Assembly (NCBI RefSeq): GCF_001570605.1
Contig: NZ_BBXG01000002.1
Location: 218,549-282,548 of the forward strand
Length of the DNA stretch: 64,000 nt
Reading direction: 5' to 3'
From: Herbidospora cretacea
Lineage (GTDB): Bacteria > Actinomycetota > Actinomycetes > Streptosporangiales > Streptosporangiaceae
Within the stretch, counting starts at the first letter, position 1, and each line of letters starts with the position of its first letter. Below, piece after piece: positions 14,251 through 18,877 of the stretch. Both the position numbers and the translations under genes were made by a program. The notes beneath the pieces were generated by a model. The model was not told the origin of the DNA. It saw nothing but the letters and a program-made list of their open reading frames with translations, and did no database searches.

Positions 14251-14697
14251 ATGAAGCTCATTCTGACGACTGAGGTCTCCGGCCTCGGCGCCCCTGGCGA
14301 CATCGTCGAGGTCAAGAACGGCTACGGCCGCAACTACCTCATCCCGCGCCAGTACGCGATCCTGTGGACCCGCGGCGCCGAGACCCAGATCTCCTCGATC
14401 AAGAAGGCGCGCGACGCCCGCGAGATCCGCGACCTGGGCACGGCCAAGGAGGTCGCCGGTCAACTGGGCGCCCTCAAGGTCAAGCTGAAGACCAAGGCCG
14501 GCGCTTCGGGCCGCCTCTTCGGCTCGATCACCACGGGCGACATCGCCGACGCCGTCAAGGCGGCCGGCGGCCCCACGCTCGACCGCCGTCGCATCGTCAT
14601 CGACAACGCGATCAAGACCACCGGCACCCACCGGGTCAGCGTCAAGCTGCACCCCGAGGTCGCCGCCGCGGTCGACATCGAGGTCCTGGCCAGCTAG
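14251..14697 (+). CDS. rplI: 50S ribosomal protein L9
   Basis: 148 residues: MKLILTTEVSGLGAPGDIVEVKNGYGRNYLIPR is the N-terminal L9 domain, then a long helix and the C-terminal domain with GRLFGSITTGDIADAV. It bridges ribosomes at the L1 stalk base. It is the last gene of the operon and is followed by a hairpin terminator. Confidence 0.98.
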   Translation: MKLILTTEVSGLGAPGDIVEVKNGYGRNYLIPRQYAILWTRGAETQISSIKKARDAREIRDLGTAKEVAGQLGALKVKLKTKAGASGRLFGSITTGDIADAVKAAGGPTLDRRRIVIDNAIKTTGTHRVSVKLHPEVAAAVDIEVLAS

Positions 14698-14746: not shown

Positions 14747-16060
14747 TCATGTCCGGGTCACGCGCGAGGTCATGGTGGGGCCGCTGACCAGCCATTTCGA
14801 GCCGTAGGCGCGGGTGCCCAGAGTGGCGAGGCGGGCGGCCATCCAGACGCCCATGGCCAGCCACAGGCCCGGCAGGCTGCTCGCGACCAGGGCGACCGGG
14901 AGGAAGGCGACGGTGGTCCCGACCGCCGCCCAGGCCAAATAGCGCTGGTCCCCCGCGCCGATCAGCACCCCGTCCAGGACGAACACCACGCCCGCGAGGG
15001 GCTGGAGCAGGGCCACGATCCAGATGATCGACGTGAGCGCGGCCGTGACCGCGGCGTCGGCGTCGAAGATCCTGGGGATGACCGGCGTGGCGGCCAGCAC
15101 CCCCAGGCCGAGCACCACACCCGAGCCGACGCCCCACAGGATCATCCGCCACGTCGCCCGCCGCGCGGCCGTCACCGCCCCCGCGCCCAGTTGACGGCCG
15201 ATGATCGCCTGCCCGGCGATCGCGATGGCGTCGAGGGCGTAGGCGAGCAGGGTCCAGATCTGGAAGACGATCCCGTGCGCGGCCACCTGGGCGGTGCCCA
15301 TCCGGGCCGCCATCACGGTGGCCACGATCAGCACGATCCGCAGGCAGACCGTTCTGATCAGGATCGCGATCCCGGCCAGGCCGGAGGCCTTGATCCCGGG
15401 GACGTCGGGACGCAGCGACGCGCCGTCCCTGCGAGCCCCCCGGACGACCATGACCAGGTAGGTCACCGCCATGAGGGTCTGCGCGGCGGCGGTGCCGGAG
15501 GCGGAGCCGGCCAGGCCCCAGTCGAGGCCGAGGACGAACCACGCGTTGAGCGCCGCGTTCAGGGCGAACCCGCCGACGGAGACGACCAGGGGAGTCACCG
15601 TGTCCTGGAGACCGCGCAGGACGCCCGTGCCGGCGAGGACCAGGAGCATGCCCGGAGCGCCGAGCAGGCTGACGCGCAGATAGGTCACGGCGTCGTCGAC
15701 GACGCCCGGTTCGGCTCCCACCAGGCCGACCAGCCACGGCGCCAGCGGCCAGCAGACCACGACCACGGCCAGACCGATTCCCGCCGCGAGCCACAGTCCG
15801 TCCATCCCGCGCTGGACGGCCTCCCGCCGCGCCCCGGCTCCGATCCCGCGCGCCACGGCGGCGGTGGTGCCGTAGGCCAGGAACACGCATAGATTGACGA
15901 CGGTCGCGAGAATCGTGCCCGCGACGCTCAGCGCGGCGAGGGAGCCGGTGCCGAGGCGTCCGACGATGGCGTAGTCGGCCAGCAGGAAGAGGGGTTCGGC
16001 GACGAGCGCCGCGAACGCGGGGATGGCGAGCCGGAGGATCTCGCGATCGTCGGGGGACAT
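14747..16060 (-). CDS. MATE family efflux transporter (DinF-like)
   Basis: 437 residues with about twelve hydrophobic segments in two related halves. The N-terminus DREILRLAIPAFAALVAEPLFLLADYAIVGRLGT is characteristic of the DinF branch of MATE sodium- or proton-coupled drug exporters. A MATE gene between rplI and dnaB is also found in streptomycetes. It is divergent from dnaB, and the shared region holds the DnaA-box cluster. Confidence 0.9.
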   Translation of the reverse strand: MSPDDREILRLAIPAFAALVAEPLFLLADYAIVGRLGTGSLAALSVAGTILATVVNLCVFLAYGTTAAVARGIGAGARREAVQRGMDGLWLAAGIGLAVVVVCWPLAPWLVGLVGAEPGVVDDAVTYLRVSLLGAPGMLLVLAGTGVLRGLQDTVTPLVVSVGGFALNAALNAWFVLGLDWGLAGSASGTAAAQTLMAVTYLVMVVRGARRDGASLRPDVPGIKASGLAGIAILIRTVCLRIVLIVATVMAARMGTAQVAAHGIVFQIWTLLAYALDAIAIAGQAIIGRQLGAGAVTAARRATWRMILWGVGSGVVLGLGVLAATPVIPRIFDADAAVTAALTSIIWIVALLQPLAGVVFVLDGVLIGAGDQRYLAWAAVGTTVAFLPVALVASSLPGLWLAMGVWMAARLATLGTRAYGSKWLVSGPTMTSRVTRT

Positions 16061-16230: not shown

Positions 16231-16321
16231 GGGCCGCGTTGCTGATGGCGAGAGGTGGCGGGAAACTGTCGGAGGCGTCATCTACAAATGAGGGTGGGTG
16301 CGAGCGAGGGGGGAGGGCCAA

Positions 16322-18877
16322 GTGAGCGTCGTCGACTTCTCCGGCGGGCCTTCCGAGCCGTCGTTCGAGCGAACCCCGCCCCACAACATCGAGGCCGAGC
16401 AGTCCGTCCTCGGCGGCATGATCCTCTCCAAGGACGCCATCGCCGACGTCGTGGAAGTCCTCCGCTCCGACGACTTCTACCGCCCGGCCCACCAGATCAT
16501 CTACGAGATCATCACCGACCTCTACGGCCGGGGCGAGCCCGCCGACGCCGTCACGGTCTTCAGTGACCTGCAACGCCGCGGCGAGGTCGGCCGCGTGGGC
16601 GGCGGGGCCTACCTCCACACCCTGACCGCCGTCGTCCCCACCGCCGCCAACGCGGGCTACTACGCGAAGATCGTCCGCGAACAGGCCGTGCTCCGCCGCC
16701 TCATCGAGGCCGGCACCCGCATCGTCTCCTACGGCTACGGCGGCCAGAACGAAGAGGTCGACGACCTGGTCGACCGCGCCCAGGCCGAGATCTACAAGGT
16801 CACCGAGCGCCGCACCTCCGAGGACTATCTGCCGCTCTCGGAGATCATGCCCGCCGCCCTCGACGAGATCGAGGCCATCGGCAGCCGGGGCGGCCAGATG
16901 GTCGGCGTCCCCACCGGCTTCCAGGACCTCGACGCCCTCACCAACGGCCTCCACCCCGGCCAGATGATCGTTGTCGCGGCCCGCCCGGCCATCGGCAAGG
17001 CCCTTGCCCTCGACACGCCACTTCCCACCCCGACCGGCTGGACGACCATGGGTGACGTGGCAGTCGGAGACCAGCTCATCGGCGCCGACGGCAAGCCGAC
17101 GACAGTGGTGGCCGCGACCGAGATCCTCGAAGGCAGGCCCTGCTATGAGGTCGAGTTCAGTGATGGCGCGGTGCTCGTGGCCGACGCCCAGCATCAGTGG
17201 CTGACCAGAACTCGATCCGAGCGGCGCAACGGCCTTCCCGGTTCCGTCGTGACGACCGAGCAGATCGCTCAGACGCTCCGTCGTCCCTCTGCCGATCGGC
17301 GCCTCAACCACGCGGTGCCGGTCGCCTCCGGAGTGGTCCTGCCCGAGGCCGATCTGCCGGTGCCGCCTTACACGTTGGGTGTCTGGCTTGGCGACGGGAA
17401 CAGTGCCACGGCGATGTACACGAGCGCGGATCCTGAGATCGCGCAGCACATCGAGGCCGAAGGTCTGCGCGTTGTCAGGGCCGGTGATTCGCTGCGCTAT
17501 CGCATCCAGTTTTGCGAGGCAGAGGCGATCCCAGCCCGGACCTGTGTGGTCTGCGGTGCGTCGTTCGTGCCACGCACATCACAGGTGCGCACCTGCGGTC
17601 AGTCCTGTGGCGGCCGGGCCAGGTTCCTGTCGGCCCCGGTTCCCGCGCCGACCTGTCCCGATTGCGGCCGGCCGTCAACCGGGATGCGCCAGTGTCAGAA
17701 GTGCCGTGACAACCACGGAACCCTGCAGGCGGTGCTGCGCAGCATCGGTGTGCTGAACAACAAACACATTCCGGCGGGCTACCTTCGCGCGTCCGAGGAG
17801 CAGCGGCGGGCCCTGCTGGCCGGGCTGCTCGACACCGACGGTTACGTCAACAAGACGGGGACGGTCGTGCTCGCCCTGACCAACCGTCGGTTGGCGGAGA
17901 ACGCCTGGGAGTTGGTGCTCAGTCTCGGCTACAAGGCCACCTGGACGGAGAAGCCCGTGCCTGGTCGCACCGTCGAGTCGTCGACCAGCTACGCCATCAC
18001 GTTCACGCCGGCTGACCGGGTTTTCCGGCTCGCTAGAAAGGTCGCCCGACAGACTCTTCGCGATCACCCGACGACGCGACTGCGCTACATCACCGATGTC
18101 CGGCCGGTGGCAAGTGTGCCGGTGAGGTGCGTTGAGGTGGACAACGATGCCCACCTTTATCTCGCCGGGCGCACCTGGATCCCGACCCATAACTCGACGC
18201 TAGGGCTAGATTTCGCCCGTTCTGCGGCTATCAAGCATGGAATGACCACTGTGGTCTTCTCGCTGGAAATGTCCAGAAACGAGATCACCATGCGCCTGCT
18301 GTCCGCCGAGGCCAGGGTCGCCCTCCACTCCATGCGCTCCGGCATGATGAACGACGACGACTGGACCCGCATGGCCCGCCGCATGGGCGAGGTCGCGCAG
18401 GCCCCCCTGTTCATCGACGACTCCCCCAACATGTCGATGATGGAGATCCGGGCCAAGTGCCGCCGGTTGAAGCAGCGCAACGACCTCAAGTTCGTGATCG
18501 TCGACTACCTCCAGCTGATGAGCTCCCCGAAGAAGACCGAGAGCCGCCAGCAGGAAGTGTCGGAGCTGTCCCGTGCGCTCAAGCTCCTGGCCAAGGAGCT
18601 GGAGGTCCCCGTCATCGCGATCTCCCAGCTGAACCGTGGCCCGGAACAGCGAACCGACAAACGCCCACAAGTGAGCGATCTACGCGAATCGGGCTCGATC
18701 GAGCAGGACGCCGACATGGTCATCCTGCTCCACCGTGAAGACGCCTACGAGCGCGAGTCCCCGCGGGCCGGTGAGGCCGACCTGATCGTGGCCAAGCACC
18801 GAAACGGCCCCACCGCCACGGTGACCGTCGCCTTCCAGGGCCACTACAGCCGCTTCGTCGACATGGCCGCCCACTAG
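16322..18877 (+). CDS. dnaB: Replicative DNA helicase DnaB with in-frame intein
   Basis: Precursor of 851 residues; removal of the 398-residue intein leaves a 453-residue hexameric helicase of normal size. The N-terminal domain begins FERTPPHNIEAEQSVLGGM. The RecA-like domain has Walker A (ARPAIGK, then ST after splicing), Walker B KFVIVDYLQLMS, and ISQLNRGPEQR followed by DLRESGSIEQDADMV. It unwinds DNA at the fork with DnaG primase. GTG 16322 is preferred because GGGAGG lies five bases upstream; another GTG at 16298 is in frame. The first ~25 codons after the intein use rare triplets (CTA twice, TCT, CGT, ACT) unlike the rest of the gene. Confidence 0.96.
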   Translation: MSVVDFSGGPSEPSFERTPPHNIEAEQSVLGGMILSKDAIADVVEVLRSDDFYRPAHQIIYEIITDLYGRGEPADAVTVFSDLQRRGEVGRVGGGAYLHTLTAVVPTAANAGYYAKIVREQAVLRRLIEAGTRIVSYGYGGQNEEVDDLVDRAQAEIYKVTERRTSEDYLPLSEIMPAALDEIEAIGSRGGQMVGVPTGFQDLDALTNGLHPGQMIVVAARPAIGKALALDTPLPTPTGWTTMGDVAVGDQLIGADGKPTTVVAATEILEGRPCYEVEFSDGAVLVADAQHQWLTRTRSERRNGLPGSVVTTEQIAQTLRRPSADRRLNHAVPVASGVVLPEADLPVPPYTLGVWLGDGNSATAMYTSADPEIAQHIEAEGLRVVRAGDSLRYRIQFCEAEAIPARTCVVCGASFVPRTSQVRTCGQSCGGRARFLSAPVPAPTCPDCGRPSTGMRQCQKCRDNHGTLQAVLRSIGVLNNKHIPAGYLRASEEQRRALLAGLLDTDGYVNKTGTVVLALTNRRLAENAWELVLSLGYKATWTEKPVPGRTVESSTSYAITFTPADRVFRLARKVARQTLRDHPTTRLRYITDVRPVASVPVRCVEVDNDAHLYLAGRTWIPTHNSTLGLDFARSAAIKHGMTTVVFSLEMSRNEITMRLLSAEARVALHSMRSGMMNDDDWTRMARRMGEVAQAPLFIDDSPNMSMMEIRAKCRRLKQRNDLKFVIVDYLQLMSSPKKTESRQQEVSELSRALKLLAKELEVPVIAISQLNRGPEQRTDKRPQVSDLRESGSIEQDADMVILLHREDAYERESPRAGEADLIVAKHRNGPTATVTVAFQGHYSRFVDMAAH
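17000..18193 (+). other. Class 3-type intein with LAGLIDADG homing endonuclease inside DnaB
   Basis: 398 residues inserted after K226 of the helicase, within the Walker A loop. It begins with Ala (ALALDTPLPTPTGWTTM), not Cys or Ser. It has H65 and W67 in block B (ADAQHQW), C377 in block F (VRCVEVDN), T396-H397-N398 at the end and Ser as the +1 residue. W, C and T at these positions are the signature of class 3 inteins, which splice through the block F cysteine. LAGLIDADG motifs are GVWLGDG (D132) and LLAGLLDTDG (D280). Between them lie two four-cysteine sets (182/185/199/203 and 219/222/232/235) that look like zinc ribbons. Confidence 0.92.

Follow-up and report, generated by a model that had tools for sequence, protein, structure and literature searches.

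In this work we describe an intein that interrupts the DnaB protein of Herbidospora cretacea in its Walker A loop, at the site known as DnaB-b. The intein has 398 aa and is encoded at 17000..18193 on the + strand of the window, that is, the whole stretch of 64,000 nucleotides that was analysed, which is part of contig 2 of a genome of 8.28 Mb. The data make it likely that this intein belongs to class 3 and is mobile, and that its homing endonuclease carries a double zinc ribbon built on eight cysteines (the Cys8 module) that serves homing and not splicing.

The host gene (ORF 16298..18877, + strand) codes for 859 aa and is a dnaB interrupted by the intein, with the N-extein at 16298-16999 and the C-extein at 18194-18874 plus the stop codon. 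Its identity as DnaB was established with TIGR00665 (539.4 bits for a cut-off of 385.25), and the N- and C-terminal DnaB domains of Pfam were both matched. The intein is bordered by ARPAIGK upstream and STLGLDF downstream, splitting the Walker A motif between GK and ST, and this P-loop position corresponds to site b in the work on M. smegmatis DnaB (PMC6195587). The rplI gene (14251-14697, named by eye) is located upstream of dnaB, the surroundings of which look like an ordinary chromosomal setting. Between these two genes there is one on the - strand (14747-16060) that resembles, also by eye, a MATE-type transporter gene.

The first-pass annotation of this DNA had proposed a class 3 signature composed of Ala1, W67, C377, T396, the terminal HN and a +1 Ser, and this signature was borne out when the sequence was aligned with the solved structures of two inteins of the class. 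In phmmer searches against the PDB, residues 1-83 and 364-398 were aligned with 6rix (DnaB1 of M. chimaera, PMC7664689; E 3.5e-46) and residues 1-70 and 363-398 with 6bs8 (DnaBi1 of M. smegmatis; E 4e-41), and in both structures the same residues are found at the positions of A1, W67, the block F Cys and T-H-N. The placement of W67 and C377 was checked in this way, and neither of them falls outside blocks B and F, respectively. By sequence and alignment we located, all on the + strand, the non-nucleophilic first residue Ala1 (17000..17002), Cys48 (17141..17143), which corresponds to C48, the redox partner in DnaBi1, block B at residues 61-67 (A-D62-A-Q-H65-Q-W67; 17180..17200), the block F nucleophile Cys377 (18128..18130) and Thr396-His397-Asn398 with the +1 Ser (18185..18196), so that the block B H65, the C-terminal H397-N398 and the +1 Ser nucleophile are all present. 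Because the W-C-T triplet is the published definition of the class (PMC6195587, PMC5050341), the Herbidospora DnaB intein is, as judged from its sequence, class 3 by that definition.

These residues were followed in a larger collection. Of 245 loci screened, 226 gave an intein by a flank pattern and 19 gave none (empty alleles, other genes, L081, L123 and several fetched regions); the 226 inteins represent 207 distinct ones, of which 183 lie at DnaB-b, with L130 as the only viral one, and 24 elsewhere. In a first set of 117 distinct inteins, viral ones included, A1, C48, D62, H65, W67, C377, T396, H397 and N398 are all invariant, and in the complete set of DnaB-b inteins W67, C377 and T396 are kept in 183/183 and Cys48 in 182/183. 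A1 is also kept in all of them, but both this residue and the terminal HN are required by the flank pattern, of which W67 and C377 are independent.

The intein was matched by LAGLIDADG_3 (36.7 bits, cut-off 22.5) and by Hom_end (31.6, cut-off 21.1), and no other LAGLIDADG_3 match was found in the genome. The first LAGLIDADG motif (block C; residues 124-133, 17369..17398) was placed by sequence and model, the block D region (NNKHIPAGYL; 17756..17785) by sequence alignment and motif 2 (block E; residues 273-281, 17816..17842) by profile match, sequence and model, all of them on the + strand; D132, K255 and D280 are present in blocks C, D and E, and each LAGLIDADG helix ends in an acidic residue. 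The AlphaFold2 model of the intein, built with 71 sequences, has a pLDDT of 93.7 and a pTM of 0.89, and its best match among solved folds was PI-SceI, a class 1 intein (E 4.1e-17, TM 0.60 by query), class 3 mini-inteins giving a target TM of 0.81-0.87. The predicted cleavage site of the endonuclease lies in the Walker A codons of a dnaB that has no intein.

Two sets of four cysteines with knuckle spacing, C182xxC185-x13-C199xxxC203 (17543..17608, + strand) and C219xxC222-x9-C232xxC235 (17654..17704, + strand), lie between the two LAGLIDADG motifs and were delimited by sequence and conservation. In the AlphaFold2 model the first LAGLIDADG half holds this module between a strand (166-171) and a helix (242-248), with a pLDDT of 82-91 across ten-residue blocks from 171 to 240, and two short helices (201-204 and 233-240) start near the last Cys of each quartet; such a modelled placement of a helix near the end of each Cys set recalls that of treble-clef knuckles. 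Each module Cys is kept in 115-117 of the 117 DnaB-b inteins in which at least 80% of the region is filled, the mean majority frequency of the 46 other columns in the same inteins being 0.69. According to this, chance Cys pairs are ruled out by Cys conservation across DnaB-b inteins, and the figures are similar in the Streptosporangiaceae subset, formed by 48 inteins not chosen by module patterns (Cys kept in 46-48, other columns 0.64). The first-pass annotation had also considered that the two Cys4 sets are additions to the standard fold, in agreement with which a sister intein has been deprived of the module by an in-frame deletion and many homologues do not have it.

DZR_2, the double zinc ribbon family of Pfam, was matched at E≤0.1 by 41 of 46 aligned modules (best E 2.5e-6; 0.0031 for the window module), which were chosen by their Cys pattern, their own Cys conservation being therefore uninformative. 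As the window module scores 17.7 bits, under the Pfam cut-off of 27, we term it zinc-ribbon-like and do not file it as DZR_2. With the same threshold, phrog_1333, a family of unknown function, was matched by 46/46 modules, a PHROG HNH-endonuclease family by 35/46 and NinG by 13/46. The genome contains seven phrog_1333 matches, among which only the intein reaches the Cys part of the family (93-156), the other six being confined to family positions 13-105, and no donor of the module was found in the same genome (next match, E 0.18). When the module alone was compared with solved folds no match was obtained at E≤0.001 (best E 1.2), its stand-alone model being weak (pTM 0.41). We consider the Cys8 insert a probable pair of zinc-binding ribbons.

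Regarding its function, the mean net charge of module residues 182-241 is +4.6 in 118 inteins, in which the LAGLIDADG half preceding the module averages -4.1 and the half following it +2.8. Because the module is basic, is located inside the endonuclease and tends to vanish together with nuclease residues (see below), a specialised DNA-binding module, as the first-pass annotation had suggested, is a plausible reading of the insert. Alternatively, the module could be a zinc knob with a purely structural role, stabilising the fold of the endonuclease and making no contact with DNA. Cys ribbons are frequently just fold stabilisers, as is generally known, and several homologues with a short loop at this place keep both catalytic Asp, but the basic charge of the module, its resemblance to the Cys modules found in HNH and NinG nucleases of phages and the weak HTH match that the L243 intein gives in this position (best E 0.011), together with a segment of L130 that is HTH-like by eye, make this alternative somewhat unlikely.

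The relationship between module and nuclease was analysed in the Streptosporangiaceae, in which 198/297 genomes have an intein match at E≤0.001, not all of them at dnaB. The loci of this family consist of 30 listed matches, L007 and L008 and 100 regions, taken mostly in score order from the listed matches of those 198 genomes, and because of this choice some leaning towards module-bearing rows remains. Among 113 Streptosporangiaceae inteins, a full module goes together with both Asp in 35 and with Asp loss in 8, and a partial or absent module with both Asp in 28 and with Asp loss in 42, an association with an odds ratio of 6.6 (Fisher p 1.6e-5, for rows that are not independent and not tree-corrected). 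We also carried out a paired test on a tree built without the module and Asp columns, from which the genome-contig set (best 80 of 485 matches), found partly by module patterns, was excluded. In 13 independent Asp-differing pairs the module differed in the same way in 6.7, in the opposite way in 0.3 and not at all in 6.0 (median p 0.031), and in the reverse test, with module-differing pairs, the figures were 6.1 versus 0.4 with a median p of only 0.0625. On the other hand, 28 of the 63 Asp-intact inteins are without a full module, indicating that the module is not obligatory for an intact-looking nuclease. Nuclease and module vary among DnaB-b inteins and W, C and T never do. As the module tends to go with the catalytic Asp and the splicing triplet is always kept, we assign the module to the endonuclease and not to splicing, and the possibility that it is required for splicing is ruled out by the module losses in which the triplet is kept.

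Individual losses take several forms. The L007 intein, from another genome of the genus (G005), has 337 aa and is 90% identical to the window intein over shared columns; it is devoid of 61 residues of the latter, and of the module only the last CxxC remains. The sequence CCAGT is found at both ends of the window stretch that corresponds to this deletion, which would fit a slip between short CCAGT repeats. L167 and L178 retain quartet 2 or most of it, and L189 and L190-L193 retain no CxxC pair.

These data bear on the idea that DnaB splicing is tuned by the Cys8 module acting as a sensor of zinc or of redox state, whose zinc loading or oxidation would change the splicing rate, beyond the inhibition by zinc and peroxide that is already known. 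It is the case that splicing of DnaBi1 is inhibited by zinc at C118 and by a C48-C118 disulfide, and that C48 and the block F Cys form a peroxide-sensitive disulfide (PMC7360933, PMC6195587), the equivalent C48-C377 pair of this redox switch being conserved in the Herbidospora intein. However, the zinc and peroxide effects are those of mini-inteins, which have no module of this kind; moreover, modules have been lost or cut in L007, L167, L189 and others with the triplet intact, and their loss accompanies nuclease decay, so a sensor seems very unlikely. The frequent decay of the nuclease, with at least one catalytic Asp lost in 50/113 Streptosporangiaceae inteins, could also mean that the endonuclease of the Herbidospora genome is already inactive and its module a relic under no selection. 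We find this unlikely because both Asp, Lys255 and the eight Cys are intact in the Herbidospora intein and the frame is open, and because, in 48 filled Streptosporangiaceae inteins, module Cys are lost at 1/288 positions when the Asp are intact and at 6/96 when one of them is lost.

Our best reading is therefore that the double zinc ribbon may help the homing endonuclease to hold or read its dnaB target. By analogy with the mechanism published for class 3 inteins, C377 of block F would attack the N-terminal splice junction, the N-extein would be transferred to the +1 Ser and Asn398 would cyclise, with the release of mature DnaB. The predicted cut at the Walker A codons of an empty dnaB would be followed by repair copying the intein in, and in this process the basic Cys8 ribbon would hold two Zn ions and either provide further contacts with DNA or make the protein-DNA interface stiffer.

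The intein is carried by 3/7 genomes of the genus, the other four having an uninterrupted P-loop at the same place, and its nearest named relative among the best 80 of 485 matches is that of Herbidospora daliensis (84%). In a draw of 396 Actinomycetota genomes, 35 gave a match at E≤1e-10 and only three, the Herbidospora genome included, a full-length match in one piece. Class 3 inteins of other hosts were separated almost cleanly from DnaB inteins in a FastTree phylogeny (24 other-site rows, 2 changes). A recent transfer into the Herbidospora genome is unsupported, given that the identity of the window intein is lower than that of the exteins for every relative listed (within the genus, 84-90 versus 98%). 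As a separate observation, the DnaB_C match breaks near profile position 201 in L137 and L138 (G006 and G004) and in L140/L164 (G005), as if an intein were present at the second known site (a), in which case G005 would have both.

The probable phage origin put forward by the first-pass annotation held only in part. Such an origin has been published for the class; the mycobacteriophage terminase inteins (TerL1-c and -e), although residing in host proteins other than DnaB, are class 3 and form one clade with mycobacterial DnaB-b inteins (PMC5050341), and related phage inteins are found, 32-45% identical to the Herbidospora intein among the 40 listed of 706 records. The places occupied by these listed phage inteins span ~980-1060 bases, close to the 1011 of the module-less L007. 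Furthermore, two viral DnaB helicases (L117 and L130) have an intein at the same dnaB site, and that of L130 is 57-66% identical to chromosomal ones with exteins at 30-32% (25 pairs listed), values that fit an intein exchange between phage and chromosome. The module itself, however, could not be traced to phages in the searches made. It is missing from both L117 and L130, and its exact form was not found in any of 17 viral loci; in 16 viral loci several CxxC pairs in the endonuclease part were seen only in L127, with one in L124, and the viral locus L123 has a single CxxC in the loop. A tblastn search with the module returned 10 phage records at E 0.2-0.7, and the same module was not found in the two that were inspected. 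These are the best match, terL of Tetrasphaera phage TJE1, which was rejected since it is HNH-like with CxxC modules in another frame. At L248:1503-2240, in this same phage, the annotated terL continues into an intein-like region, and the HNH-like and twin CxxC sequences are in a different frame that ends in a stop.

Other class 3 inteins also have additions in the loop that bears the module. L173, an intein of the same family in a conjugation-type ATPase (by eye), has a two-quartet module in the same loop, with similarity to the window module (BLASTP E 3e-5, single comparison) and to DZR_2 (E 7e-4); L127, in a viral ATPase, has a different Cys set, L118 a weak HNH-type match (E 0.01-0.02) and L243 the weak match to HTH families mentioned above. 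The segments of L123, L127, L130 and L202 gave no family match in profile searches, the HTH-like one of L130 being recognized by eye. From these few and weak matches it is possible, though we propose it tentatively, that class 3 inteins can accept different, exchangeable DNA-binding modules at one docking site, namely the loop that follows the final strand of the first LAGLIDADG half. If this were true, module exchange would re-aim or tighten homing, and class 3 inteins would be natural zinc-finger meganucleases.

Some additional features of this collection are worth recording. L175, L182, L208, L214, L218, L224 and L233, from genomes of the same family, are class 3 inteins at the Walker A motif of ATPases that by eye are FtsK/SpoIIIE-type-like, with the flank MPHxLxAGATGxGK followed by S. 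In the alignment, L025 and L127 have an additional insert that follows block B and precedes the first LAGLIDADG motif, and such an insert is also found in L176, L177, L181, L183-L186, L188, L202 and L244; in L022, L026, L027, L030 and L033, of ~500 aa, it was judged by length only. It often includes an HREAxAVVGxEF-like segment, and the example searched, L202, gave no PHROG match. In the DnaB-b inteins L220, L204 and L171 this same interval, from block B to the first LAGLIDADG motif, contains long stretches that are repeated or of low complexity.

Class 3 inteins, dnaB site b and the presence of LAGLIDADG endonucleases in inteins are already known. The inteins of M. smegmatis (DnaBi1; 6BS8, 6OWN) and M. 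chimaera (DnaB1; 6RIX, 6RIY) share with the Herbidospora one the class 3 residues, Cys48 and the block F Cys, and DnaBi1 also shares its P-loop site b (PMC6195587). The solved mycobacterial chains, of 139-146 aa, are nevertheless devoid of endonuclease and Cys8 module, both of which the Herbidospora intein has, and the mycobacterial DnaB-b inteins studied in PMC5050341 are without endonucleases (mini-inteins also in PMC7360933). PI-SceI (the VMA intein, VDE) likewise combines a splicing domain and a LAGLIDADG endonuclease, but, unlike the Herbidospora intein, is described in PMC7282813 as having no zinc finger. A parallel in organization is that of yeast HO and WHO, in which an intein-type LAGLIDADG endonuclease is likewise joined to a Cys-X-X-Cys zinc finger domain, which in HO holds residues essential for cleavage; PMC7282813 terms them the only known intein-zinc finger fusions. 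In contrast to the Herbidospora intein, their finger is C-terminal, the proteins are free-standing and HO does not splice (PMC7282813). Local similarity to the Cys module is also shown by the zinc modules that NinG and HNH endonucleases of phages possess (phrog_1271, phrog_171 and Pfam NinG), but these are other nuclease families and the matches are weak.

In the portions of the intein literature that we searched, no earlier description of a double Cys module in an intein endonuclease was found. Full-length DnaB inteins may be listed by Tori and Perler, who reportedly widened the class 3 definition, or in InBase. What appears to be new, on the grounds of sequence comparison, is a class 3 intein at DnaB-b that bears an endonuclease and, within it, two conserved and probably zinc-binding ribbons. 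With this insert, zinc modules would have been joined to an intein endonuclease for a second time, separately from yeast HO/WHO, and, unlike the yeast case, the insert sits inside an intein that still keeps its splicing residues. Moreover, the natural pairs of inteins with and without the module would be a testing ground for the effect of added modules on meganuclease specificity, and the Herbidospora-type intein is a candidate scaffold for engineering.
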